42,888 bases of DNA, taken from positions 1 to 42,888 of the IMG/VR virus record IMGVR_UViG_3300018476_000008. One strand, given 5' to 3'. The translations under genes were made by a program, and so were the position numbers. The DNA comes from a virus. The notes under the pieces are model-generated. The model did not search any database. It had not been told where the DNA came from and saw only the letters and a program-made list of their open reading frames with translations. Positions 1-42,888 of this stretch are shown here, piece by piece. Positions within the stretch are counted from its first letter, which is position 1, and every line of letters begins with the position of its first letter.

Positions 1-123
1 CCAGCGTGTCGGCGCGGAAGTACTCCAGCAGCGCCTGATTGTCCGCGCTGGGGGTGGCGACATAGTTCGCCGAGAAGATGCCGCTGGTGGCCTTGAGCAC
101 CAACCCGGAGATGCCGCGCGTGC
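1..123. repeat. Direct terminal repeat, copy 1 (circular overlap)
   Basis: These 123 bases are identical to 42766-42888. The tail-fibre gene stays in frame when the two copies are merged (849 nt, 283 codons). The simplest reading is assembly overlap of a circular or circularly permuted genome, not a biological terminal repeat, because it lies inside a coding gene. Confidence 0.95.
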
Positions 124-5311: not shown

Positions 5312-5857
5312 CTACCGGCGGCGCTTCGGCTGCGCGCCGCCCGACTCGTCGCCCTCGTCGGGCAGGCTGTTGTCGGGATACTCGCCGCCGCCCTCGCCCG
5401 GCAGTCCCTGATCGGGATACTCGTCCTTGCAGGGCACGAGCACCCAGCCGTAAACCGGCGACCACTTCAGTTCGAACTTCTGGTCGCGCTCGGGCCGCTC
5501 GGGCAGGTAGATCGGCAGCGACACCTGCGGCGGCTGCACCGGCAGGCTGTTGTCGATGCCCGGCTGTTCACCCGGCAATCCCTGATCGGGGCGCCCGCCC
5601 CCGCTGCCGCCCGGCGCAATCGGGTGCGTGGGGAACCCCGGCCCCTGCGAGGGGTAGTTGCCGCCCCCGCCCGGGGCGATGGGGTGCGTCGGGAAGCCCG
5701 GTCCCTGCGACGGGTAGGGCGGCTGGCCGCCGGGCGCAATCGGATGCGTCGGAAACCCCGGCCCCTGCGACGGGTAGTTCGGCAAGCCGGGCAGGCTGTT
5801 GTCGGGCCGGCCGTCGCTGCCGTCGAGGAACGTGATCAGCGCGAGACGTGCGTTCAT
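5312..5857 (-). CDS. Pro/Gly repeat protein of the virion region
   Basis: 181 residues. The protein is built from repeats: three near-identical copies of YPSQGPGFPTHPIAPGG (about residues 27-85) plus scattered PDNSLPG and PDQGLPG motifs before and after. One ordered stretch, 'LPIYLPERPERDQKFELKWSPVYGWVLVP' region (split for length), contains alternating aromatic and hydrophobic residues and may be the folded part. Similar Pro-rich repeat proteins occur between capsid and tail genes in metagenomic phages; their function is not established. The coding frame is the only one giving repeats at protein level while codons differ between copies, which supports that it is translated. Confidence 0.7.
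   Translation of the reverse strand: MNARLALITFLDGSDGRPDNSLPGLPNYPSQGPGFPTHPIAPGGQPPYPSQGPGFPTHPIAPGGGGNYPSQGPGFPTHPIAPGGSGGGRPDQGLPGEQPGIDNSLPVQPPQVSLPIYLPERPERDQKFELKWSPVYGWVLVPCKDEYPDQGLPGEGGGEYPDNSLPDEGDESGGAQPKRRR
5611..5790 (-). repeat. Three tandem ~60-nt coding repeats
   Basis: Three units of about 60 nt inside the 181-residue gene encode YPSQGPGFPTHPIAPGG followed by a variable 3-residue linker. Differences between units are mostly synonymous (for example gcaatcggatgcgt versus gcgatggggtgcgt), so the protein sequence is maintained by selection. Confidence 0.85.
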
Positions 5858-6717: not shown

Positions 6718-7635
6718 CTACGCGCCCGCCGTGCCGTAGGTGTTCTGCCAGAGAAACGCGTCCCACGCCTGCCGGAAGCGCACCTTGTAGATGCGGTTGC
6801 CGGTGCGCGGATCCTGCATCGCCGGCGCGGCCGTGATGCCGAGGCGGTCCACGCAGACCAGCCCGTGCGTTTCCTTGGACGAGGCGATCAGGAACCACGC
6901 ATCCGGGTCGGTCAGGTAGGGGTTGACCACGATGCGGATGTTGCGCCGCTTCTTGATCGGGTTCAGGTCGTTGTCGGCGCCGCCGGGCAGCTGCGTGCTG
7001 TTGACGATGCGCTCGGCGAGCATCTCCAGCTGCGGCGGCACGTAGAGGATCCACGACATGACGGGCGCGACCAGCTGGCCGCTTTCCATCTTCGTGTCCG
7101 TCTGCACGTCGCCCATCGCCTGCGCCAGCGAGTCGTAGCTCAGGTCGGCGTCGGTGGCCGGCCGGTTGCGCGCGGTGCCGCCGCCAGCGAGCACGTGCGC
7201 GGTGTTGAACAGCGAGACGCCGTCAGGCGTGGTCTGCGTGGTGAAGCCGTTGTTGAACGGCCGCGCCGCATACTTCTCCTGCACGACGCGCGCGGAGAAG
7301 GCCAGCCACGCCGCCTGCCGCTGCAGCACGTCGTACTGGTCGTCTTCCAGCGCCGTCTCGGTCACTTCGAACCCGAGGCCGAACTCGACCGGCGTGATGT
7401 CCTTGCTGTAGCCGGGCCGGATCAGGTCGAAGGCGTAGACGCTGCCCTCGGGCTTTTCGGGCACGTCGCCGAACGGGGTGACCGTCTGGAAGCGTTCGAA
7501 CTTCCGGGTGCTGCTCTTGCGCGAGTACACCTCGGTCCAGATGGCGGGCAGTTCCTTGAGCTGTTTGCCGAGCAGCGCGTAGACCGTCTTATCGACGTTG
7601 TCGTAGAGCGCTGCAAATGTTCCGCGAACCTGCAT
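6718..7635 (-). CDS. Major capsid protein, Mu gpT-like (HK97 fold)
   Basis: 305 residues. Features of the Mu gpT-like major head family: an N-terminal 'LPAIWTEVYSRKSSTRKFERF' arm, 'FGLGFEVTETALEDDQYDVLQR' (E-loop/spine region, about residues 88-109), 'ARPFNNGFTTQ...LFNTAHVL' (about 143-168; the F-N/N-x-F...LF-x-T-x-H signature) and a C-terminal A-domain with 'VNPYLTDPDAWFLIASS'. Preceded by a good ribosome site (AGGAG nine bases before ATG) and followed by a terminator, as expected for the most abundant virion protein. It lies downstream of the decoration gene. No delta domain, so the separate scaffold gene (9031-9966) fits. Confidence 0.88.
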   Translation of the reverse strand: MQVRGTFAALYDNVDKTVYALLGKQLKELPAIWTEVYSRKSSTRKFERFQTVTPFGDVPEKPEGSVYAFDLIRPGYSKDITPVEFGLGFEVTETALEDDQYDVLQRQAAWLAFSARVVQEKYAARPFNNGFTTQTTPDGVSLFNTAHVLAGGGTARNRPATDADLSYDSLAQAMGDVQTDTKMESGQLVAPVMSWILYVPPQLEMLAERIVNSTQLPGGADNDLNPIKKRRNIRIVVNPYLTDPDAWFLIASSKETHGLVCVDRLGITAAPAMQDPRTGNRIYKVRFRQAWDAFLWQNTYGTAGA

Positions 7636-10599: not shown

Positions 10600-12699
10600 C
10601 TACATCATCGACGGCGGCTGGCCGCCCATGGCCGACATCATCTGCGGCGGCAGCTGCGGCAGCGGCGGGCCGCCCGGCCCCGTCGGCGGCGCGCCCGGCA
10701 TCTGCGGCGGTCCCGGCGGCTGCGCGCTGGGCGGCGGGCCACCCGGGGGCGGTGGTCCCGGCGGCTGACCCGGCGCGCCCGGCGGCGGCGCCCCCGGCGG
10801 CTGCATCTGCGCCTGCATCGCCGCCATCTGCTGCTCCTGCTGCGCCTGCACTTCCCACTGCCGCATCGCCCGCATGAACTGCGCGCGGTTGGGCACGTCG
10901 AACAGGCGCAGCGCCTGTTCAAACAGCGGCACCAGCACGTCGGGCGACGTCAGCACCTGCGCGAGGCTCTGGTTCATCTTCGCAAAGCCGCCCATCACCG
11001 ACATGAAGCCGTTGTAGTTGGCGCGCTGCTTGTTGCGGTCGGCGCCCTCGACGCTGCCCCGGGGCTTGCCGTGGAACGTGCCGGCCAGTAGGTCGGCCGT
11101 GATGTTGCCGTCGGCCAGATCGATGCCGCGCGCGGCCAGCTCGGCCACCATCTTCGCGCCCGGCTCGATGGGCGCCTCCATCGCGGCGCGGCGCCACAGC
11201 TCGTGCCGGCATTTGAACAGCTCTTCCAGCGTCTCCTGCATGTTGCGGATCGACTCTTCGATCCGCACGAAGCTCTGCTCGGTGACCATCTGCACTTCGC
11301 CCAGCGTGCGCGACGCGTCGGGCGTGGCGCCGAGGCTGACGTCGTTGAGGCCGCTCAGGCGCTCGGCGGCCTGAATGATCCCGCCCTCGCGGTTCATCAT
11401 CGACGCGGGCACGTCGGGCAGATCGAACGGCTGCACGTCGTTCATGTCGTTGACGGTCATCCGCTGGCCCGGTCCCCACGGCTCCTCGTCGGGATCCCAT
11501 GCGGAGCTGGTGAGCACCTTGATCGGCGCGTTGTTGACGAGGTTGCTGCGGTCGGCAATCGCGTTGCGCGTGCCGGCGTGCTCTTCGCCAAGGCCCGCCA
11601 GCTTCTGCACGTGCGACCGGCCGTAGACGCTGACCGGGTTCGGGTAGGGGCGCAGCAGGTAGTAGCGCGGCAGGTTCAGGTCATCGAGGCGGATGCGCAG
11701 GATCACCCGGTGCACCGCGCTGAACGTGATGATGTACCACTCGTCCACGCCGTCGTTGTCGAGGTCGGCGACCAGCTGCAGCTCCCACAGCTCCTTCTCG
11801 ATGGTGCGCGCGTGATCCTGCGGCGCGATCTGCTGGCCGGTGCTGGCGACGCTGGGCAGCAGCGGCTGGCTCTCGCGGTCGCTGACCGCGCCGAGCGCCT
11901 CGACGGCTTTCTTGTCGTAGACGCCGTCGTCGGCGCGCTGCTGCAGCTCGGTCAGGCGCCGCCAGAAGCGCTTGGCGTAGCCCCACACCTCGGAGTCGTC
12001 CTGCGCGTGGCCCGGCAGGATCAGGAAGTCGCGCAGGCTGCAGACGCGGTAGCTCGGGCCGCGCCGCACGGGCACTAGCTCCTCGACCACCTGCTCCAGC
12101 GCGCCCTGCGCGGCCGGGTCGTCAGCCATCAGGAACTGCCCGCGCTCATCGAGCGCCGGCTGCGGCGCGCCGTCATCGCCGAGCAGGACGGTCCCGTCGG
12201 GCGCGCGTTTCGGCTGCACGCGTTTGACGGCGCGTTGTTTCCGCACGTCCGTCTTCTCGCTGCACTCCAGCACGCCCGTCCCCTCGATCAGGGCGAGGTC
12301 GAACGCTCGCTGTAGCCAGCCCTGCAGCCGCTCGTCTTCGACTTTCCATTGATGGAACTCCTCCACGAGCGCGGCGCGCTCGGCCGCCTTGCCCCAGCCC
12401 TCGACGGTCCACACCGGCTCCACGAAAATCGTTTTCACGAAGCGCGCGCGCATCGCGTCGATCTTCTCGGTGACGATCCATGTGGCGAGGTCAGCGGCGC
12501 CCGGGAAGGGCAGCTCGCTGCTGTTGCGCTTGCCCTGTTCGTAGAGCCAGTGCCAGTAGTCGAGGTCGCCGCCGGCCTCGATGATGGTGGAGCGGGCCGC
12601 GACGGCGCGCGTGATCTCGTCGTGCAGGAAGTGGACGAGGTCGCTCGTCTTTTCTTCCGACAGCTTGACGTCAAACGCCGAGCGCCGTCGCGGGTCCAT
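10600..12699 (-). CDS. Portal protein (P22-type)
   Basis: 699 residues, the usual size for podovirus portals. Seen in order: N-terminal helices with 'DYWHWLYEQGKRNSSELPFPGAADLATWIV' region, a wing with 'VRRGPSYRVCSLRDFLILPG', a crown/clip segment 'ELQLVADLDNDGVDEWYIITF' and 'YYLLRPYPNPVSVYGRS', the stem 'LGEEHAGTRNAIADRSNLVN', and a long helix 'VTEQSFVRIEESIRNMQETLE'. The last 70 residues are Pro/Gly/Gln/Met-rich and disordered. It forms the dodecameric DNA gate at one capsid vertex and binds terminase during packaging. Lies two genes after TerL as is typical. Confidence 0.88.
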   Translation of the reverse strand: MDPRRRSAFDVKLSEEKTSDLVHFLHDEITRAVAARSTIIEAGGDLDYWHWLYEQGKRNSSELPFPGAADLATWIVTEKIDAMRARFVKTIFVEPVWTVEGWGKAAERAALVEEFHQWKVEDERLQGWLQRAFDLALIEGTGVLECSEKTDVRKQRAVKRVQPKRAPDGTVLLGDDGAPQPALDERGQFLMADDPAAQGALEQVVEELVPVRRGPSYRVCSLRDFLILPGHAQDDSEVWGYAKRFWRRLTELQQRADDGVYDKKAVEALGAVSDRESQPLLPSVASTGQQIAPQDHARTIEKELWELQLVADLDNDGVDEWYIITFSAVHRVILRIRLDDLNLPRYYLLRPYPNPVSVYGRSHVQKLAGLGEEHAGTRNAIADRSNLVNNAPIKVLTSSAWDPDEEPWGPGQRMTVNDMNDVQPFDLPDVPASMMNREGGIIQAAERLSGLNDVSLGATPDASRTLGEVQMVTEQSFVRIEESIRNMQETLEELFKCRHELWRRAAMEAPIEPGAKMVAELAARGIDLADGNITADLLAGTFHGKPRGSVEGADRNKQRANYNGFMSVMGGFAKMNQSLAQVLTSPDVLVPLFEQALRLFDVPNRAQFMRAMRQWEVQAQQEQQMAAMQAQMQPPGAPPPGAPGQPPGPPPPGGPPPSAQPPGPPQMPGAPPTGPGGPPLPQLPPQMMSAMGGQPPSMM

Positions 12700-13504: not shown

Positions 13505-13591
13505 TCAGCGCCGACGCATCAGCACCCAGTTCAGGGCCACCACCAGCACGAGCCATGCCGCGATGCCCGCGAGCACGAGCACGCAGCTCAT
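13505..13591 (-). CDS. 28-residue single-span membrane microprotein
   Basis: ATG at 13591 overlaps the TerL stop by four bases (ATGA), giving MSCVLVLAGIAAWLVLVV followed by ALNWVLMRRR and a stop. A 20-22 residue hydrophobic span ends in three arginines, so it should insert as one helix with the C-terminus in the cytoplasm (positive-inside rule). TerL itself ends in Arg-Arg-Arg over the same bases in another frame. No family recognised; a pinholin-like, regulatory or spurious role are all possible. The coupling to TerL and clean hydrophobicity argue that it is real. Confidence 0.5.
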   Translation of the reverse strand: MSCVLVLAGIAAWLVLVVALNWVLMRRR

Positions 13592-15135
13592 CGGCGGCGC
13601 GCACGCGCCGACCCGCCCCAGCGCCCGCGCTGCACGGGCACCCGATCCATAGGGTCAAGGTCGCGCTGGCTGCGCGCGGCCGCGAGGCGCTCGGCCTTGG
13701 CGTGATCGACGCGGCTGGGCTGCGCCGGCCCGTAGGCCAGCACCATGTATTCCAGCGTGTTCATCCCGTGGTCATAGAAGCCGTCCTTACGCGGTCGCCG
13801 CGTGTTGGGCGACAGCGTGGTCGCGTACACGCGCTCGTCCCACACGTAGCCGGCCTCCAGCGCGTCCACAAAGTGCGTCGAGCTGACCGGGCCGTCGTCG
13901 CGAAACAGCAGCCAGCGGTCGGGGTCCACGAGGAACGCCGGCCCCATCTTCGTGAGGCGCCGCTGGTAGCCGGCGATGTGCTGGATGCAGCGGTCGCGTG
14001 CGTCGATGTGGTTGGCGCCGGGGATCGTCCACAGCTGCACGCCGTGCTCGCGCAGCACGTCGGCCGCGCTGACGTTGGTGCCCTGCGAATTGTTTTGATC
14101 GCCGGCCGGGTCGCCGGTGCTCAGGATCTCGTAGGGCCACTCGCTCTGCGACGCGTCCTCGACGTTGAACAGGCCGCCGAACCACGTCGCGCGCAGCCCC
14201 AGCGCGGAGGGCGCGAAGTCCTCGATGAACTGATCGACGCCCATCACGCCGCCGAGGATGACCAGCTGGCCCCACGGCATGATCTGCCCCCACGTCACGT
14301 GCGGGTGCTTGTGGCCGAAGTCCCACGCCTCCAGCAGCGGCACGTCGGGGTTCATGCGCGTCGGGCCGATGTGCAGCTGGCTGTTGAACGTCGAGCCGTA
14401 GACCGGCGTGCCGACCACCGACAGGCCGCGCTTGCCTTCGATGAAGCGCCGCCGCAGCGCGTGGCCGGCCGGGTAGGCCAGCTCCAGCGAGCGGATGTAG
14501 TGGTCGCCGAGGTTGCGGCGGTTGTCGTAGACGCTGGTGCGCAGGTAGCGGTGCCCGGGCCGCGTGTTGCTGACCGGGAAGTCGCGCGCGAGCCAGTGCG
14601 TCTCCCCCGGCGGGTTGGGCGTGAGCAGCACCTGATGCGGGTAGCCGGGCTGCGACAGCCGGGCCGGCACGTAGGCCCGGTAGACGTCCTCGGGCACCTC
14701 CTCGGCTTGGTCGATGCCGATGATCGCCAGCGTCAGGCCGGCCAGCTTGGAGAAGCGGCTCGTCTCCTCGCTGGCCTTCAGCGCGCGCAGGTAGACGCGG
14801 CTGCTGCCGTCCTTGGTCAGCACCTCGTCGTACTCCTCGTCGGCGTGCCACCGCAGCGCGACGCCGTTCTCGCGGCACCAGTCGCGCCAGCGCGGCTTGA
14901 GCTGGGCGTCGAGGCCGTCCTGCGTCCAGCGCGTCAGCGCGCAGTGGATGCCGGGGTGGTCGATGCAGTAGCCGAGCACCTTGGCGCACAGCGGCGTGGT
15001 CTTGCCGGCGCGCACGGCGCCTTCCAGATCGACGTAGGGGTCGGTGGCCGCGTCGGCCTGCAGGAACGCCGACTGCACGCCGTTCCAGCGGTGCGTGATG
15101 CGCCGGCGGCCGTTGACGATAGCGACCTGCGCCAT
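13588..15135 (-). CDS. terL: Terminase large subunit
   Basis: 515 residues. Walker A 'GAVRAGKTT' at 39-47 and Walker B 'LAIIGIDQAEEV' at 136-147 (Asp142, Glu145) mark the packaging ATPase; the 'LLTPNPP' at about 170-176 resembles the coupling motif C. The nuclease domain starts with 'LLEAWDFGHKHPH' (Asp272, first metal ligand) and continues with 'STGDPAGDQ' (second acidic cluster). It cuts concatemeric DNA and pumps it into the prohead through the portal. The ATG at 15135 follows the previous stop by four bases. The reading frame and motifs leave little doubt; the packaging type (headful or cos) cannot be told from this alone. Confidence 0.93.
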   Translation of the reverse strand: MAQVAIVNGRRRITHRWNGVQSAFLQADAATDPYVDLEGAVRAGKTTPLCAKVLGYCIDHPGIHCALTRWTQDGLDAQLKPRWRDWCRENGVALRWHADEEYDEVLTKDGSSRVYLRALKASEETSRFSKLAGLTLAIIGIDQAEEVPEDVYRAYVPARLSQPGYPHQVLLTPNPPGETHWLARDFPVSNTRPGHRYLRTSVYDNRRNLGDHYIRSLELAYPAGHALRRRFIEGKRGLSVVGTPVYGSTFNSQLHIGPTRMNPDVPLLEAWDFGHKHPHVTWGQIMPWGQLVILGGVMGVDQFIEDFAPSALGLRATWFGGLFNVEDASQSEWPYEILSTGDPAGDQNNSQGTNVSAADVLREHGVQLWTIPGANHIDARDRCIQHIAGYQRRLTKMGPAFLVDPDRWLLFRDDGPVSSTHFVDALEAGYVWDERVYATTLSPNTRRPRKDGFYDHGMNTLEYMVLAYGPAQPSRVDHAKAERLAAARSQRDLDPMDRVPVQRGRWGGSARARRR

Positions 15136-15381: not shown

Positions 15382-15633
15382 CTATTGTGAGGGAGGCTGC
15401 CACTGATCCGGGCCTTCCGCGTCGGGTTCGTTGACGGCAATCGCGCTGTTGGCGTGCATCGAGGCGGCGTGCACGCAGCGGATCGCGAGCGTCTGCTCGG
15501 GCGACTCCGGGGTCAGCTCGGCGATGGCGTCCGCGTAGGTGCGGGCCGCCGCGCGCAGCCGCGCGTAGCGGTCGGGCTGCGTGCCGTGGGGTTTGTGGTA
15601 CGCGAACAGGCGGTCGAGATTCAGCTTCGGCAT
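15382..15633 (-). CDS. Acb2/Tad1-hairpin family protein (cyclic-nucleotide sponge candidate)
   Basis: 83 residues. 'LFAYHKPHGTQPDRYARLRA' (9-28), then 'LTPESPEQTLAIRCVHAASM' and the ending 'HANSAIAVNEP' match the helical-hairpin family with consensus F-x-Y-H-x-P...Q...RY...R.AA...A..I....P.S.E...A...L..A.M.ANA.IA, known as DUF7681 or Acb2/Tad1 hairpin. Family members Acb2 and Tad1 bind signalling nucleotides made by CBASS and Thoeris, so blocking those defences. The family match is from remembered consensus; whether this copy binds nucleotides is inference. It overlaps the preceding stop (TGATG) and has GGAG nine bases upstream. A plain structural role in other members of the family cannot be excluded. 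Confidence 0.7.
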   Translation of the reverse strand: MPKLNLDRLFAYHKPHGTQPDRYARLRAAARTYADAIAELTPESPEQTLAIRCVHAASMHANSAIAVNEPDAEGPDQWQPPSQ

Positions 15634-16882: not shown

Positions 16883-17560
16883 CTACGCACGGCGCCAGCG
16901 CTTGCGCGCGCGCGACGCGAGTCCGATCAGGCCGCTCCCTAGCAGCACGAGGCTTGCCGGCTCAGGCACGGGCACCTGCGCCTGCACCTGCGCGTCGGCC
17001 GTGCCGGTGAAGCTGGCGCTGAAGCTGTTGATGGTGCCGCCGCTGATGCCAAGGCCCGGCGTCAGGTTGGACAGCGACAGGCTGAAGCTCATCGGGTCCA
17101 CGAGGAACACCGGCAGGTCGGTGTCCATGGTCAGCGGGTCAAACGTGATGGTGTTGGCCGTGAACACGGCGCCGGTGCCGCCCTCGCCCCCGAGCAGCAG
17201 CGCGCCGCCGAAGCTGCCCGACAGGTAGGAGAACGTGCCGGCGCTGTTGGTCAGGTTGAACGTGCCCTCGTAGTTCTGGAAGATGCCCGTGTCCCCGCCG
17301 GGGCCGACAAACGTCTCGGCCGCGCCAATCGACTCCGCGTCGAAGGTGAACAGCGCGTTGGGGTCGGTCGCGCCGCTGACGATGTTGGTGATCGACACGC
17401 CGGCGTCCGACGCCAGCGTGGTCGTGCCGTCGCCGTTGTTGGTGGCGAAGAACAGGTTGGTCGTGCCGAGCTGGCCGAAACTGACGATCTGGTCAGCGGA
17501 CGCACGCACGGGGAGCAGGAGCAGAGCGACAGCGACGGTCAGACAGCGCAGGCTTCGCAT
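16883..17560 (-). CDS. Secreted PEP-CTERM protein encoded by the phage
   Basis: 225 residues from ATG 17560 (GAGG nine bases upstream; the earlier ATG at 17575 lacks a ribosome site). Signal peptide: basic start 'MRSLR', hydrophobic core 'CLTVAVALLLLPV', cleavage at Ala-Ser-Ala | Asp-Gln (22/23). The mature part is beta-rich, with Gly, Asn, Thr and Ser, as in extracellular PEP-CTERM proteins. The C-terminus has all three sorting parts: 'PVPEPASL', hydrophobic span 'VLLGSGLIGLAS', and basic end 'RARKRWRRA'. Exosortase (EpsH) of the host would cleave and anchor it in the envelope or polysaccharide. It has no known virion role; a surface-change, superinfection-exclusion or exosortase-decoy function is inference. 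Genes on both sides are ordinary phage genes in the same operon, so this is not a contig error. Confidence 0.85.
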   Translation of the reverse strand: MRSLRCLTVAVALLLLPVRASADQIVSFGQLGTTNLFFATNNGDGTTTLASDAGVSITNIVSGATDPNALFTFDAESIGAAETFVGPGGDTGIFQNYEGTFNLTNSAGTFSYLSGSFGGALLLGGEGGTGAVFTANTITFDPLTMDTDLPVFLVDPMSFSLSLSNLTPGLGISGGTINSFSASFTGTADAQVQAQVPVPEPASLVLLGSGLIGLASRARKRWRRA

Positions 17561-17588
17561 CGGGAGGCACCTCATAGTTGGAGCGGCA

Positions 17589-31505: not shown

Positions 31506-31723
31506 GCAGCAAGGCCGTCGTCTACATGGAGCTGGCGCCGGTGCTGTGCCCCACCAAGTGCGGCCGGCTACTGGCAGTCGAGCGGGAGGTGTGGAACCCG
31601 CGCCTGCGGCGCTGGACGGGGCAGCTGCGGTGCCCGGCCGGGCATCACATCCACGACACCCGCCAGCTGCACGAGCCGCGCCCGCACGACTTCGTGCCGG
31701 GCGGGCAGCCGGCGCTGTTCTAG
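31502..31723 (+). CDS. Small zinc-ribbon protein, last rightward gene
   Basis: 73 residues from GTG 31502 (GTGA). 'APVLCPTKCGRLLAVEREVW' (12-31) and 'GQLRCPAGHHIHDTRQ' give CxxxC...C...H ligands for one zinc. Its TAG is within the last codons of the convergent lipoprotein gene (stops overlap at 31720-31723), so no terminator fits between them. Confidence 0.6.
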   Translation: MSSKAVVYMELAPVLCPTKCGRLLAVEREVWNPRLRRWTGQLRCPAGHHIHDTRQLHEPRPHDFVPGGQPALF

Positions 31724-32187
31724 GCCGACCACTGGCCGCTGATCGTGACGGTCGGCTGGAACCCGGTGGCGTGCGCTTCGCGGAACAGCTGGCCGTCCAC
31801 GAACAACTGCGCGGTCAGCGTGCCCTCTTCGAACAGCGCCGACGACACGACCAGCGACAGGAACATCAGCGTGCGCGTCGAGCGGATGGTGGCGAACCAC
31901 GGCAGGTCGGTCGTCAGCAGCGTGGTGCCCTCGGTGGTGCTGCTGTGGCTGATGTCCACGCGGCGCACGGTGCCGGTGACGCGGAACTCAAAGCTGTGCA
32001 CCGGCGGCGGCGGGGGCGGCTCCTCGATGGGCGTCGGCTTGGTCGGGTTCTCGCCGTTGCGGTCGGCGAGACACTGGCGCCGCTCGTGCCGGTCGTCAAT
32101 GTCCTCGCAGTCCTCCTCGTCGGAGCACGCGCAGGCCGCCGCCAGCACCGGCAGCACGGCAGACAGGAAGAGGCGGCGGTTCAGCAT
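31720..32187 (-). CDS. Secreted lipoprotein with Tat-like signal
   Basis: 155 residues from ATG 32187. 'LNRRLFLSAVLPVLAAACAC' (2-21): paired Arg followed by x-F-L as in Tat signals, a hydrophobic span and an Ala-Ala-Ala-Cys lipobox-like end (L at -4, so imperfect). Residues 22-60 are acidic and Pro-rich linker. The rest, 'FEFRVTGTVRRVDISHSSTT', 'LPWFATIRSTRTLMFLSLVV', 'GTLTAQLFVDGQLFREA', is a beta-sandwich similar in pattern to MmpS-like lipoproteins. Phage lipoproteins often block superinfection by binding receptors in the outer membrane; here that is inference. Own operator-linked promoter at site 6. Confidence 0.7.
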   Translation of the reverse strand: MLNRRLFLSAVLPVLAAACACSDEEDCEDIDDRHERRQCLADRNGENPTKPTPIEEPPPPPPVHSFEFRVTGTVRRVDISHSSTTEGTTLLTTDLPWFATIRSTRTLMFLSLVVSSALFEEGTLTAQLFVDGQLFREAHATGFQPTVTISGQWSA

Positions 32188-32544: not shown

Positions 32545-32794
32545 GGCAACCCCCAAGAGTGTGACGACGTTGACGCCGCGCGCTGCAGCGCCCTACGACC
32601 CACGCGGCGCGCATCTGCGGCACCAGCCGCGCGCGCGGTGCTACGGCTGCGGCGGCGGCTCGCACGAGACGCGCCTGCTGCATCTCGACCGCCGTGGCCT
32701 CGACTGGCACGCCGACTGCTACGTGACGATCCTGCAGACCGCCCCGCCGCGCGACTGGCGCACGGGCCGGCACGTGCTGCCCTTCACTCGCTGA
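32543..32794 (+). CDS. Small zinc-binding protein, plus strand
   Basis: 83 residues from ATG 32543, which shares its CATG with the start of the opposing 45-residue gene. 'QPRARCYGCGGGSHETRLLH' and 'LDRRGLDWHADCYVTILQ' give CxxC, several His and a final His-Ala-Asp-Cys: a plausible zinc ribbon similar to small phage 'CxxCG....H......WH..C' proteins. The ribosome site is weak. Its stop overlaps the convergent polyvalent gene's stop by eleven bases. Could be a shadow, but the motif order makes me include it. Confidence 0.5.
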   Translation: MATPKSVTTLTPRAAAPYDPRGAHLRHQPRARCYGCGGGSHETRLLHLDRRGLDWHADCYVTILQTAPPRDWRTGRHVLPFTR

Positions 32795-35700
32795 CCGGGC
32801 GGATCTGGTCCCGCGAGAACACCTGATACTCGTCGGGGTTCATTTTGTCGCCCCGGAAGATCACGCCGTCGTGCTCGGGCGTCAGCGCCGTGAGCGCCTC
32901 GCGCTTGGCGTCGCCGAAGCTCATCCCGCGCTTGCGCAGCTTCGCGACCGTGTCGGTGATGTCCAGCGGGTGGTGCATCACGAGGTGCGCCGAGAGCACG
33001 CGGCCCGGCGGGTGCTTGATGCCGGCGCGCGGCGGCCGCGTGTAGCCAGACGCGCTGCGCTGATCGGTGGTGAACGACACGCCGCGCGCGCCGCTGACCG
33101 GGCGCACGTTCGGCCGCGCCGGATCGAGATCGGTCACCACGATGTCGCGCGCCGTGCTGCCATGGTGCACCGTGATCGGCCGGCCGTCGGGATGCCGCAG
33201 CAGCCCGCCGCCTAAGTCGCCCTCCGTCCCGGTCGCAGCGGCCGCCGCTGCCCCCGGGCGCTGCTGGCGGTCGCGCTGCCGCTTCCACCACTTCAGCATC
33301 ACGCGCTGGTTGGCCGACAGGCGCGGGTCCGCTTCCAGTGCGGAGATGCGCGCCGCGATCTGGTTCGGGTCGAGCACCGACCCGCGCTCGTAGACGTGCG
33401 GGCGCCGCGCGGCCGCTGCGTTGCGCGCCGCCGGGCTGCCGGCCAGCCACGACATGCCGCCGGTGCCCTGCTCCTGAAACTGCAGCAGGTCGTAGACGGA
33501 GTACTGGTTGAACTCCATCCCCAGCGTCTTGGCCACCAGATTGTTGTGCCCGCGCGACGGCGTCGCGACGACGTCGAGCACGAGCGTGTTGGGCGGCACT
33601 TCGCGGCCCGCGAACTTCACCGCCGTCTTGCCCGCGCGGCGCTCGGCCGGCGTCAGCGCGGGCGCGACCCAGCCGCCGATGGCGAAGTCGGGGTTGCGCA
33701 GCAGGTCGGCGTTGTCCTGCATGAACGCCACCACCGCCGGGATCCAGCCGTCCTCGGCCGACTTCGCCGCGCGCGGCACCATCAGCTGGCGCTCGGGGAA
33801 GATCGACACCGCCGTGACGTCGGTGCCGGCGCGGCCCTGCCCGCCCAGCGCAAACGTCGCCCCGCCGTTGGCCTCGATGCTGTCGGTGACTTCCTTGGCC
33901 AGTGCACTGTCGCGCGCGAGCAGCTGCTTCTCGGCGCGCTCGACGCGCTCGGCGTGCGGGATCGCGACCGTGCGGCGCCCGACGCGCTCCTCCAGCGGCA
34001 CGTCAGCCAGATACGGGTCGAGCCGCGCCGCGCCGGCGGCCGCGAGATGCTCCTGCTGATCGAGCGGCAGTCCCTGCGCGCTTTTCTTGCCGCCGAACAG
34101 GTCGCTGCCGAACTTCTGCCGGAACCACAGCGTGGCCTGCGCCGCAATCGGCGACATGCCCGTGCGCTTGGCGGCCTCCATCAGGTTGCGCTCGGTGACC
34201 TCGTAGCCGACGTCCGCGATCAGCTTGTTGCTGACGTACTCGCTGCCCTGCGCGGTCGAGCGGTGCGCCTGCCGCACGGTCGGCTTCGCGAACTGCTGCG
34301 TGAGCACGCGCGCCTCGCGCTCGATGCGTGCGACCTCGCGCGGCGTGATGGGCGTGCCGCGCGCCTCGGCGCGCTTGGTGGCCTCGGCCATCAGGCGCTG
34401 CTGCGTCTGATCGACGCGCGCCTGCTGCGCCTGTTCCGCCAGCGTCTGCGCTTCGCGCGCGATGCGGGCCTCGTCGGCCGGCGTGATCTCCAGCCCGCGC
34501 GCCTCCGCGCGCTTGGTGGCTTTCGCGAGCAGCCGCTCCTCGATCTGCGCCACGCGCTCCGGGTCCACGTCCACCACCGACACCTGCCGCACGCGGCGGT
34601 CGCCGCCGCGCACGAGCGGCTCGCCGGTCGCCGGATCGATCACGGGCGCGCCGCTGGGCGTGCGGCGCAGCACCGGCTCGTCGGTGCGCAGCGGGATCTC
34701 GGTCGGCAGGCCCATGCCGCGCAGCACCCAGCGGTCATTGGTGGTCGGGTCGATCATGCGGCCGATGGCGTCGTGGCGCTGCACCTGCGCGAGGTTGTGG
34801 AAGTAGCTCTCGATCTTCCGCCCGCCCAGCGTCTCCTTCGTGCCTTCCATCAGCGCGCGCAGCGCGGGGATCCCCGGCTTGCGTTCGTTCATGCCGAAGA
34901 TGCGGCGCTGCTCGCGCGCCTTCCGGCCGCCCTCGGGCGTGATCGACTCCATCCCGATCATGCGCGTGCGCAGCCACTCCATCAGCTGCGGCCGCGTGAG
35001 ATCGTCGGGCGCGGTCTTCACGGCGTCGGCGACACGCTTGTAGAGCGCGAAGTTATCCGCCGGCGGCGTGTTGGTGCCAAACGCCGCGAGCGCCTCCAGC
35101 GCGAAGTACTGCTTCTCGGTCAGCGCCGGGCGCACGATATTGCCGGCGGCGTCGGTGACCGCCGTGCCCGCGACCGTGGCCGCGCCGGGCGCCGCCGGCA
35201 CGTGCGACTCCACCATCCCGCGCGCGCCGTCATACCAGCCGCCCTGCAGCGCCTGATCGGTGTCGATCATCCGCTCGGTGCGTCGCACGTCGAGCGCGCG
35301 GCCGCCGCTGTCGCGGTCCACCTTCGCGACCAGCTCGCGCGCCTGCGTCTCGGCGGCGTCCAGTGTGCTCGTGACCTTCTCAGCGACGCGCTCCGCGTTC
35401 CACGTCGGATAGCGCTGCTGGAAGTGCTTGGTGAGCATCGGCGTCAGCCGCTGACGCGAGATCGCCGAGCTGCGGCCTTCGGAGATGTCGCCGGCCAGAT
35501 GCACCAGCGCCTTGCGCGTCGGCGGCATCTGGCGGTAGGCCATCGCGCCGAACGCGACCGTGCTGCCGGCCAGCCCGAGGATCTGCAGGCCGCTGACGGC
35601 CGTCGCGCGCATCTCGTCGTCGGGGATCAGGCGCCGCATCATCGGCGTGTCGCCCAGCTCCTGCGCGGTCAGCGCGAGCGTCGGCCCGGCCGCGACGTTG

Positions 35701-38378
35701 ACGGCGCCGGCGCCGCCGGCCTTGAGCAGCCGTCGGCCGACCGACGTGGCGGCCGCCGCCGGGCCGCCCGCCTTCATGCCGGCGCCGCCGAGGAGCAGCC
35801 CCATGCCGCCCCCAACGATCTTGGCGGGGTTGCGGGTGGTCAGCCCTTCATCGAGCGCGGCCGCGCCCTGCAGCGCCTCGACGCCGCTGGCGACGCGCCC
35901 CACGCTCTCGGCGCCCTTGGCGAAGCGCGTGCCGGCGGCCAGCGGCCGCGCCACCGAGCTGGCGAGAAACGCGAGATCGCTCGGGCGCGTGAACTGCTCC
36001 AGCGCGGCGGTCGCCTTGTTGACGTTGGGGTGCCCTTCCCACTCGGGCAGATCGATCAGCGGCTGGTCGTAGCGGTTCACGACGTCGGCCGCGCGTCGCA
36101 CCAGCCCGCCGCCGGCGTCGGCGCGCAGCACGTCGGGATCCCGGCGCGCGGCCGCCTCGGGCGATCCGTCCTCGGCCAGCGGCTCGTCGCCGCCCATCAG
36201 TGCGGGGTCGAGGCCGTCGCCGGTGAGCGGCTCGGAGACGTTGGGCATCGGCGTGACGATGTCGTCCACGTTGCTGTCGGGGTCGCTGATGCCGGGCAGG
36301 TTCGTGCCGCTGATGCCCAGCTCCCGCAGCTGCTCCTGATACTCCTCGTCGGTCATGTCGCCGGGCACGTCCACGTTCATGCCGCCGCTGGCCTGCGAGA
36401 TGCGCAGCTGCGTGCCGACGCGGCCGAGCACCGAGCGCAGCGCCTCGACGTCGCCGCGTCGCAGCGCCTGTGCCACCCCGAGGCGCACCTTGGCGCTGAG
36501 CAGGTTGAACTCGGGCGACTTCACCAGCTTGGTGCCGTAGTGCAGCAGCGCGCCGGCGGTGGCGGTGGCCAGCCCCGCGCCCGGCAGGCTCAGGTCGAGC
36601 AGCGTGCTGGCGATGCCGCCGCCCACGGTGCCCACGACGCCGGCGACGCCGGCCATCGGCCCTTTGGTCTGGCCGGTGCGCCGCTCGATGGTGTCCTGCA
36701 CGACGTCGCCGAGGTTGCGGTTGAAGCTGAACGCGCGGTTGGGCGCCACCAGATCCGGCACCTGCTGCGCGATGCTGCCGCGCAGGATGTTGGCGCCGCT
36801 GCGGTGCGCACCGCGCCGCGACTCGTCGGCGATGTCGGAGAGGAACCCCTTGCCGTTGCCGCCGGCGACGATGGAGTCCCACTGCTGGCGGATGTTGCGC
36901 GTCTGATCGATGTTCATCTCGCTGCCGTAGGCGCGCACTTGTGCGATCAGGTCATCGACCTGCTGCGCGCCGGCGGCGTTGTGCACGATCTCCTCGCCCG
37001 CGTCGTTGACCCCGACAAACGTGCGCCGCAAGGATCCCAGCGAGCTGAGAATCGGCTGGGTGCGGATGCGCGACGGCGCGACGGCCGCCTGCACGGTGCG
37101 GAGCCGGCGCTGCGTCGCGCGCGCGAAGTTCCGCGTGGCCTGCACGGTGCCGCCGCTGATCGCGGTGTCAAACGCCTGCCGCACCGCGCCGACGCCCTGA
37201 ATCTGCGCCGAGCGCCGCCCCAGCTCGCCGCGCAGGCCGCGCATCGCGGTCGTCAGCTCGTCGCGCGCCACCTGCAGCACCTGCAGCGACGTGCTCTTGG
37301 GGTTCACCGACGACAGCCCCTGCGCGATGGCCTCCAGCGTCTCGCGCGTCTTCGGCGCGAGCTGGACGCCCACGGATCCGGCCTTGGTCAGCAGCGCGTT
37401 GGCGCCGTTCTGCAGTGCGACGCGCGCGGCCTTCAGCTGCGGCGCGACGTTGCCCTGCCGCACGCCCGACAGCACGGCGTCGATCCGCTGGCCGGCGGCG
37501 CGCGCGTTGGCCTCGGCCGAGTCGGCGAGCGCCTGCAGCCCGCCGAACCACGGCGTCTGCTGGATGACCTGCTCCCAGTTCTTTTCCACGAAGCGCTTGT
37601 TGGCCTTCGTGCTCGGCGCCACCGCCTGCGACACGCGCTGCTTCGCCTTGGCCAGCTGCTTCTCGGCGGCCTCGGCCACCTCGCTCGCGGTGCGCGACGG
37701 GAAGATCGCGCCAGTGACGCCGCCGGTGACCGCGCCCGTGATCGGGTCGCCCGCCGTGGCCTGCCCCATCAGCGCGCCGACGGCGCCCTCGCGCGCGGCG
37801 CTGGCCAGCCGGGGGAAGCGGGTCGCGCCCGCCACGCGGCTGCCCGGCAGCAGCGCCGACATCGTGACGTCGCCGGCGAGGCCGCCGATCTGCTGCTCGG
37901 TGTTCGCATACTGCAGCGCGTCATCGAAGATGCCGTAGGGCTTCGGCGTCTCCACGATCAGGTCGGTGAGTGATTTGGTCTGCGTCGGCCGGCCGATAGC
38001 GCGGCGCACGGTGTCGATGTAGGGGTTGCCCGGCACCTTCTCGCCGGTCACGCCCTCGACCAGCCCACGCGCCATCGCCTCGGGGCCGAAGCGGTCGTAG
38101 CCCTGCAGCAGCCCGAGCGCCGCACGCGGCACCGACTTGGCCAGCCCCTTGGTCAGCTCCCACTGCGTGCCCAGCGTCGTCTTGGCGTGGCCGAGCATCG
38201 CGTCGATCATCCCGGTGCCGGCGGGCGGATCGATCTCGTCGCTGGGCGGCGTCGGCTCGATGTCGGCCTCGGCGGCCGGCACCACGGCGCGCGGCTGCGC
38301 ATCGACGCGCCCCTGCGTGGCGAAGTCCACCGTGGTCGGCTGCCCGTAGGCTTGCACGTCGCTCAGCTTGTAGGCCAT
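32784..38378 (-). CDS. Giant polyvalent/internal virion protein with C-terminal ADP-ribosyltransferase-like domain
   Basis: 1,864 residues, 13% of the genome. Residues 1-60 disordered; 60-560 helical, with hydrophobic glycine-rich stretches that could cross membranes ('GPMAGVAGVVGTVGGGIAST' near 595); 560-760 further helices; about 1130-1440 a domain with 'GRKIESYFHNLAQVQRHDAI', 'NDRWVLRGMGLP' and 'GMSPIAAQATLWFRQKFG', as in polyvalent phage proteins, interrupted by a 36-residue tandem repeat (about 1283-1359). The last 140 residues match an ART-type fold: 'PITVHHGSTA', 'ARGVSFTTDQRSASGY' and 'NPDEYQVFSRDQI', in the H...S-F-T...E order of ADP-ribosyltransferases. Such proteins are packaged and injected, and modify host targets on entry. 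Ejection is inferred from its size and place among the last virion genes. Confidence 0.75.
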   Translation of the reverse strand: MAYKLSDVQAYGQPTTVDFATQGRVDAQPRAVVPAAEADIEPTPPSDEIDPPAGTGMIDAMLGHAKTTLGTQWELTKGLAKSVPRAALGLLQGYDRFGPEAMARGLVEGVTGEKVPGNPYIDTVRRAIGRPTQTKSLTDLIVETPKPYGIFDDALQYANTEQQIGGLAGDVTMSALLPGSRVAGATRFPRLASAAREGAVGALMGQATAGDPITGAVTGGVTGAIFPSRTASEVAEAAEKQLAKAKQRVSQAVAPSTKANKRFVEKNWEQVIQQTPWFGGLQALADSAEANARAAGQRIDAVLSGVRQGNVAPQLKAARVALQNGANALLTKAGSVGVQLAPKTRETLEAIAQGLSSVNPKSTSLQVLQVARDELTTAMRGLRGELGRRSAQIQGVGAVRQAFDTAISGGTVQATRNFARATQRRLRTVQAAVAPSRIRTQPILSSLGSLRRTFVGVNDAGEEIVHNAAGAQQVDDLIAQVRAYGSEMNIDQTRNIRQQWDSIVAGGNGKGFLSDIADESRRGAHRSGANILRGSIAQQVPDLVAPNRAFSFNRNLGDVVQDTIERRTGQTKGPMAGVAGVVGTVGGGIASTLLDLSLPGAGLATATAGALLHYGTKLVKSPEFNLLSAKVRLGVAQALRRGDVEALRSVLGRVGTQLRISQASGGMNVDVPGDMTDEEYQEQLRELGISGTNLPGISDPDSNVDDIVTPMPNVSEPLTGDGLDPALMGGDEPLAEDGSPEAAARRDPDVLRADAGGGLVRRAADVVNRYDQPLIDLPEWEGHPNVNKATAALEQFTRPSDLAFLASSVARPLAAGTRFAKGAESVGRVASGVEALQGAAALDEGLTTRNPAKIVGGGMGLLLGGAGMKAGGPAAAATSVGRRLLKAGGAGAVNVAAGPTLALTAQELGDTPMMRRLIPDDEMRATAVSGLQILGLAGSTVAFGAMAYRQMPPTRKALVHLAGDISEGRSSAISRQRLTPMLTKHFQQRYPTWNAERVAEKVTSTLDAAETQARELVAKVDRDSGGRALDVRRTERMIDTDQALQGGWYDGARGMVESHVPAAPGAATVAGTAVTDAAGNIVRPALTEKQYFALEALAAFGTNTPPADNFALYKRVADAVKTAPDDLTRPQLMEWLRTRMIGMESITPEGGRKAREQRRIFGMNERKPGIPALRALMEGTKETLGGRKIESYFHNLAQVQRHDAIGRMIDPTTNDRWVLRGMGLPTEIPLRTDEPVLRRTPSGAPVIDPATGEPLVRGGDRRVRQVSVVDVDPERVAQIEERLLAKATKRAEARGLEITPADEARIAREAQTLAEQAQQARVDQTQQRLMAEATKRAEARGTPITPREVARIEREARVLTQQFAKPTVRQAHRSTAQGSEYVSNKLIADVGYEVTERNLMEAAKRTGMSPIAAQATLWFRQKFGSDLFGGKKSAQGLPLDQQEHLAAAGAARLDPYLADVPLEERVGRRTVAIPHAERVERAEKQLLARDSALAKEVTDSIEANGGATFALGGQGRAGTDVTAVSIFPERQLMVPRAAKSAEDGWIPAVVAFMQDNADLLRNPDFAIGGWVAPALTPAERRAGKTAVKFAGREVPPNTLVLDVVATPSRGHNNLVAKTLGMEFNQYSVYDLLQFQEQGTGGMSWLAGSPAARNAAAARRPHVYERGSVLDPNQIAARISALEADPRLSANQRVMLKWWKRQRDRQQRPGAAAAAATGTEGDLGGGLLRHPDGRPITVHHGSTARDIVVTDLDPARPNVRPVSGARGVSFTTDQRSASGYTRPPRAGIKHPPGRVLSAHLVMHHPLDITDTVAKLRKRGMSFGDAKREALTALTPEHDGVIFRGDKMNPDEYQVFSRDQIRPVSE

Positions 38379-42329: not shown

Positions 42330-42888
42330 CAGGCCGCCTCGTAGGTGAGCGTGGCGATGAAGCCGTCGTTGGTCGCCCACGCCATCGGCACGCCGACGCC
42401 CAGCGGGGTGACGAGACTGTCGAAGTAGAAGTTGATCGTGGTCGCCGACGCGTTGACCGCCGTCATCAGCCGGTAGGTCGTGCCGAAGTCAATCACGCGG
42501 CCCGCCCCCAGCACCGCGCCGCCCGCGCCCAGCAGTGTGGGCAGCCCGGGCGGCAGCGAAAACGCCCACGTCCCCGTGCCCTGCGTCGAGGTGGACCCTA
42601 GCGTGAAGATCAGCGTGACCGACACCGTCTTGCCGACCACCGTGTAGCGGCCCGACAGCGCGCCGTTGCCCAGCGCCGGCGCCGTGCCGCTGGCGGTCCA
42701 CGCCGGCGTGTAGGGCGCCCAGTGCCCCTGCCGGCCCGTAAACCCGCTCTGGGGCAGCGTGATGCCCAGCGTGTCGGCGCGGAAGTACTCCAGCAGCGCC
42801 TGATTGTCCGCGCTGGGGGTGGCGACATAGTTCGCCGAGAAGATGCCGCTGGTGGCCTTGAGCACCAACCCGGAGATGCCGCGCGTGC
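42329..42888 (-). CDS. Tail-fibre/appendage-like virion protein, C-terminal part (circular continuation of the gene at 1-412)
   Basis: This part runs from the window edge to TGA at 42329. Merged with 1-412 (123 bases shared) it is one 282-residue frame. It is beta-rich, e.g. 'GAVLGAGRVIDFGTTYRLMT' and 'AVNASATTINFYFDSLVTPL', with a pattern of Gly, Ser and Thr like a trimeric fibre or lectin-type tip ('LIFTLGSTSTQGTGTWAFSL'). An internal ATG at 42868 is not the start. Probably a tail appendage or receptor-binding subunit; the exact role is inference. Confidence 0.7.
   Translation of the reverse strand, partial: TRGISGLVLKATSGIFSANYVATPSADNQALLEYFRADTLGITLPQSGFTGRQGHWAPYTPAWTASGTAPALGNGALSGRYTVVGKTVSVTLIFTLGSTSTQGTGTWAFSLPPGLPTLLGAGGAVLGAGRVIDFGTTYRLMTAVNASATTINFYFDSLVTPLGVGVPMAWATNDGFIATLTYEAA
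42766..42888. repeat. Direct terminal repeat, copy 2 (circular overlap)
   Basis: Identical to positions 1-123. Indicates that the unit length is 42,765 bp. Confidence 0.95.

Follow-up and report, generated by a model that had tools for sequence, protein, structure and literature searches.

Here, we describe a gene for a putative exosortase substrate in the genome of a soil phage, the virus record IMGVR_UViG_3300018476_000008, whose 42,888 bases together form the window analyzed. The PEP-CTERM gene (16883..17560, minus strand) encodes a protein of 225 amino acids. It starts with an ATG at 17560, stops at 16883-16885 and has a ribosome-binding-site-like GAGGTG (17568..17573, minus strand) just before the ATG; an alternative in-frame ATG upstream, at 17575, would lengthen the reading frame. 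Its codon-position GC is typical of the coding sequence of this genome, and dN/dS against relatives is below 1. At the N terminus, residues 1-22 (MRSLRCLTVAVALLLLPVRASA; 17495..17560) resemble a Sec-type signal sequence with a basic n-region, a hydrophobic core and an AxA-type site followed by D. Here, by eye and hydropathy, and in the relatives, signal peptides were judged from sequence and hydropathy, and all family members inspected have signal-like N-termini. Residues 23-195 (16976..17494) form a beta-rich body. The C terminus reads VPVPEP-ASLVLLGSGLIGLA-SRARKRWRRA, i.e., a PEP motif (residues 199-201; 16958..16966), a hydrophobic span (residues 202-215; 16916..16957), which lies within a helix spanning residues 201-224 in an AlphaFold2 model, and a basic tail (residues 217-225, RARKRWRRA; 16886..16912) that is present in all C-terminally complete relatives; all these parts are on the minus strand. 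The tail matches PF07589 (residues 197-220; 29.5 bits versus a cut-off of 20.7) and TIGR02595 (21.1 bits versus a cut-off of 16). Such a tail very rarely originates by chance: in Markov-simulated genomes of like composition, one of 23,195 ORFs had a PEP-CTERM-like tail and none had a tail together with a signal, a tail of this kind occurred in 15 of 102,000 residue-permuted proteins, and the protein is the only tail-bearing ORF among the 310 long ORFs of the window. Export and exosortase sorting of the protein, as predicted from these features, are well supported.

The gene is part of a long leftward gene run, with Erf, RusA and Dam genes for recombination and replication on one side and the genes for the terminase large subunit (TerL), the portal and the major head protein on the other. 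The order along the run is the Erf annealing protein and exonucleases, then RusA and Dam, then TerL, an SU10-type portal protein and the major head protein, and the gap between the PEP-CTERM gene and the preceding gene is 28 bp. TerL (13588..15135, minus strand) matches phrog_3717 weakly (E 0.0024) and is homologous to annotated TerL proteins in INPHARED, being distant from the TerL of every isolated phage there. The portal protein (10600..12699, minus strand) matches PF23899 (76.6 bits) and phrog_1216 and found no match in the comparison with isolated phages. The major head protein (6718..7635, minus strand) matches phrog_371 and annotated capsid proteins of isolated phages, and is ∼35% identical to the proteins of HTVC027P and similar isolates. 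Because the direct terminal repeats of 123 bp (1..123 and 42766-42888) are exact, the window is expected to be a complete phage genome; no integrase was found in it. With terminal repeats, terminase, portal and major head protein, and without an integrase, it is a real phage genome. Neither a sigma-54-like site upstream of the PEP-CTERM gene, nor a sigma-70 promoter for it, nor structured RNAs were found when looked for. A preliminary description had proposed a reading frame at these positions, on an unstated strand, with a signal peptide and a full C-terminal sorting signal inside a compact operon. The reading frame is real and lies on the minus strand, the profile scores and hydropathy bear out both signals, and the gene run between the recombination/replication and the packaging genes bears out the operon.

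By treating a single gene, that description understated the case. A search of phage genomes revealed a large phage family, with at least 106 distinct members among the retrieved contigs of uncultured phages. A scan with the window protein returned two relatives, both with signal and tail intact. A TerL scan, which is blind to the PEP-CTERM gene, gave 46 related IMG/VR loci in which all complete homologues recognized by a body-only model end in PEP-CTERM. An alignment scan reached contigs of 44-72% GC without the window's terminase, and from the matches listed by a scan with a tail DNA pattern 84 distinct PEP-CTERM proteins were examined, of which 48 belonged to the family by body. A body-only scan with a 5-member body alignment matched 124 stretches, with a family ORF in all 79 new loci; among its C-terminally complete distinct ORFs, 56 of 60 end in PEP-CTERM and the other four in an xEP form followed by a hydrophobic span and a basic tail. 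Over all loci, which come from uncultured contigs and were retrieved partly via the tail pattern, 98 tails are of the PEP form, 4 are xEP, 4 are cut by contig ends and none is missing, i.e., among the 102 members with an intact C terminus 98 have PEP-CTERM and 4 the degenerate form. VPEP is invariant in the 34-member alignment A8. That the relatives conserve the sorting signal indicates that the signal matters. In L231, L246, L230 and L258, VEP, FEP or SEP replaces PEP while the hydrophobic span and the basic tail are retained; these natural variants could serve to probe exosortase specificity.

A hydrophobic span and a basic tail could anchor any protein, and the exact PEP motif is missing in those 4 of 60 complete body-selected relatives. 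The tail might accordingly be a membrane anchor only, never processed by exosortase, with the protein acting in the inner membrane or periplasm, e.g., against DNA injection by rivals; however, VPEP itself, beyond hydrophobicity, is retained in most of the family, and we consider this reading improbable. The body is informative about a second alternative, in which the protein is a decoy that floods the host exosortase and blocks sorting of host surface proteins. Alignments A2, A5 and A8 define the family by its body, which contains invariant residues and, with a dN/dS of 0.2-0.6 across the family, is by this measure under purifying selection. While the full conservation of the sorting signal and the tandem PEP-CTERM genes of some phages, which raise the dose, would suit a decoy, a conserved folded body of 170 residues with invariant positions and a dN/dS below 1 would be unneeded, making a decoy very improbable.

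The fold of the body is modeled with confidence (mean pLDDT 90.8 and pTM 0.77 in the deeper AlphaFold2 model). Across two AlphaFold models and three Foldseek searches, no PDB fold matched at E ≤ 0.001; OmpX/OmpA-like matches were weak, with TM-scores of about 0.15-0.2, and were rejected. The bodies did not match the PDB by sequence either, Pfam and NCBIfam-type models found no hydrolase or lyase domain in the window protein, and there was no fold or family match for the body that suggests a function. None of 18 family members matched PHROGs and body-only sequences matched nothing in NCBIfam; the body thus defines a family absent from both. With no PHROG match, INPHARED match or paper found, the remark in the preliminary description that phage-borne PEP-CTERM proteins are hardly described holds. 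Searches of the open-access literature gave only incidental co-mentions and no earlier description of a phage PEP-CTERM family; subscription papers and preprints are outside this coverage, leaving priority uncertain. The substrate class is known, and the phage gene family appears undescribed. Homologues with a role in the virion, which the same description had named as evidence against its proposal, did not turn up, and none of the 18 members matched a PHROG. Its term "envelope protein" suits the envelope of the host and does not suit that of a virion. The Sec signal argues against cytoplasmic assembly, which disfavors a virion role.

Several observations tie the family to phage genomes. First, the GC content of the family gene tracks that of its locus or phage (r = 0.86, n = 48, range 44-72%). 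Second, distances between the PEP-CTERM proteins co-vary with TerL distances (Mantel r = 0.74), with a mean of 0.41 for the PEP-CTERM protein versus 0.22 for TerL; this fast divergence is compatible with a surface protein as well as with weak constraint. Third, the independent contig L002 has the gene at the same position as the window, and in many other contigs relatives lie at the packaging genes. No relative was found in isolated phages or plasmids. Environmental bacteria commonly have PEP-CTERM proteins and INPHARED phage isolates lack the family, which might point to a host gene in transit or to host DNA in a misassembled or misclassified contig. The terminal repeats together with the full phage gene set, the shared position in L002 and the GC content matched to each phage argue against this, as does the finding of no cellular relative in 84,980 species genomes in family-alignment and TerL-alignment scans with two short peptide patterns each, which distant homologues could escape. 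We therefore regard this origin as extremely unlikely, and host contamination of the window was rejected based on terminal repeats, synteny and GC content.

The family occurs in several unrelated phage lineages with differing terminases and gene orders. The body family is constant, and the tail, judged from its motifs (LALLGxGLLGLGxVRRR versus LVLLGSGLxGLAxxARKR), seems to track the phage group, as if tuned to differing host exosortases. Four viral records of 111-228 kb (G060, G061, G063 and G064) have two PEP-CTERM genes each, and the trait therefore extends beyond 43-kb phages. A second PEP-CTERM gene was present in 11 records, in most of them clearly adjoining the first. In the three such second genes that were read (L065:6442-7158, L014:13243-13977 and L061:6810-7595), which lie beside the family gene, the bodies are unrelated to the family and two are alike; the second genes of L065 and L014 share 70% identity in phages that are otherwise unlike.

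Within the clade of the window, the gene occupies at least three positions, i.e., before terS, between TerL and portal, and between the PDNSLP-repeat gene and portal. Of the ten TerL lineages with coverage between terS and portal, the gene is present in eight, absent from one and variable in another, the mixed lineage including L023, the sequence of which reaches only partly into portal. L022 has the gene whereas L030 and L031 have lost it, with 872 bp and 824 bp missing and different junctions, and the terminase DNA of these phages is ∼96% identical. L022 and L030 are a natural pair with an occupied and an empty site: their sequences diverge precisely where the PEP-CTERM gene has its start codon and come together again after 872 bp. 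Because near-identical phages carry or lack the gene by clean deletion, it is accessory. By these comparisons, it is dispensable and has been lost repeatedly, and the signal is kept wherever the gene is present. We consider it probable that several unrelated phage lineages share a family of exosortase substrates that is dedicated and specific to phages and that hijacks PEP-CTERM sorting by the host to redecorate infected cells.

No exosortase was found in the 57 phage records tested, and sorting must therefore rely on a host enzyme; processing of the window protein by the host exosortase is very probable. In the bacterial EpsH/exosortase system, PEP-CTERM proteins have a signal peptide, a near-invariant PEP motif, a hydrophobic helix and a basic C terminus (PMC1569441, Haft et al. 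2006); they undergo Sec export, cleavage by signal peptidase, retention by the tail, PEP recognition and release to the surface or polymer, and most of their genes form operons of their own that are preceded by long intergenic stretches (PMC1569441). The window protein is like them in signal, PEP motif, helix and basic end and also in having a body unlike those of known families. It differs from them in that its gene is phage-borne, lies in a long operon with an upstream gap of 28 bp and has no exosortase alongside; the single-gene operon with a long upstream region and a sigma-54 site, which is usual without being obligatory, is not seen here. The only precedent found in the literature for a virus-borne C terminus of the exosortase type consists of TIGR03118-family proteins with a putative exosortase-interaction C terminus in hot-spring virus contigs, which are listed in passing as cellular proteins derived from HGT (PMC11003980). 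That paper does not address a phage family, conservation or sorting of these proteins, and TIGR03118 is not among the families matched by the window protein.

The closest characterized case of the function of such a substrate is the flocculation-associated PepA (NF033554), which is likewise exported and has PEP-CTERM; overexpressed PepA converts soluble into cell-bound polymer and binds exopolysaccharide to cells (PMC9850573). The window protein scores 39 bits against NF033554 versus a cut-off of 80. Because bodies alone give no match (0 of 16 body-only family sequences), the tail accounts for most of the resemblance, and homology to the PepA body was rejected. The second point of comparison is Llp of phage T5, which blocks its receptor from within the envelope and excludes rival phages (PMC9586334). 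Llp and Cor are also small, exported accessory phage proteins in the host envelope; however, they are periplasmic or outer-membrane lipoproteins without a sorting tail, while the window protein is predicted to be sorted by exosortase, and no homology of the window protein to known exclusion proteins was found in Pfam or PHROGs.

Because PepA binds exopolysaccharide to cells and envelope exclusion proteins of the T5 Llp type exist, we favor surface remodeling. We suggest, leaning modestly toward this reading on sequence evidence, that the gene is a moron, accessory cargo resident in the phage that encodes a host-surface protein, which is processed by exosortase and displayed to change adsorption by other phages. 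Upon infection, the Sec system of the host would export the PEP-CTERM protein and the signal peptide would be removed. The tail would then retain the protein in the inner membrane until the host exosortase cuts it, and the protein would pass to the cell surface or the extracellular polymer. There, the beta-rich body would most likely alter the presentation of the surface or polymer, and adsorption to the infected cell, or to what is left of it, would then be reduced for competitors or for the progeny of the phage itself. That exclusion or surface remodeling is the purpose of the gene is a tentative proposal, in which we favor lowered adsorption by other phages.

The main rival to this proposal is a release factor that, sorted to the surface late, loosens or reorganizes extracellular polymer and thereby lets progeny out of biofilm, flocs or soil aggregates, or that aids lysis of the envelope. 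The location of the gene among late packaging genes would suit such a factor, as would the role of PEP-CTERM proteins in governing polymer binding (PMC9850573) and, in another phage group, an adjoining protein of ∼69 aa with a single TM segment that is holin-like in size. However, PepA binds polymer rather than releasing it (PMC9850573), the window protein is without a hydrolase or lyase domain, and the ∼69-aa protein is without a holin match and absent beside the window gene. We therefore consider a release factor unlikely. At L181:1114-1323 and 16 other loci, the small TM protein itself is encoded no more than a few genes away from the PEP-CTERM gene; it has no family match above cut-off, and a holin or lysis reading of it found no support.

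Many environmental bacteria have the exosortase pathway, and a purpose has been assigned to only a minority of its substrates. If a phage family depends on it, this pathway is a battleground of phage infection, and phages with PEP-CTERM genes can be linked to exosortase-positive hosts. The phage gene would also offer a small, single-gene substrate with which soil bacteria could be used to study sorting and superinfection exclusion, and the near-identical phages with and without it permit a direct comparison.

Four other genes of the window, all on the minus strand, deserve mention. Near the TerL gene, 15382-15633 encodes an 83-aa protein with an Acb2/Tad1 hairpin domain (PF24729, 38.7 versus 27 bits), likely an anti-CBASS/anti-Thoeris sponge, of which copies ∼80-86% identical are present in L002, L008, L010 and L044. 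At 32784-38378, a late protein of 1864 aa has a C-terminal stretch resembling an ADP-ribosyltransferase of the ART-PolyVal type (27.3 bits, below the cut-off of 31.2). The proline-rich protein encoded at 5312-5857 has PDNSLP/PSQGPxxPTHPI repeats, a conserved FELKWSPVYGWVLVP end and no family match; its relatives adjoin the PEP-CTERM gene in many phages and also occur in phages without that gene. Finally, 31720-32187 encodes a second predicted exported protein, whose signal contains RR and resembles that of a lipoprotein (NRRLFLSAVLPVLAAACAC) and whose body is of the beta type. Many of the phages compared have relatives of this protein, unrelated carriers of PEP-CTERM genes among them, and it is a candidate partner envelope protein.
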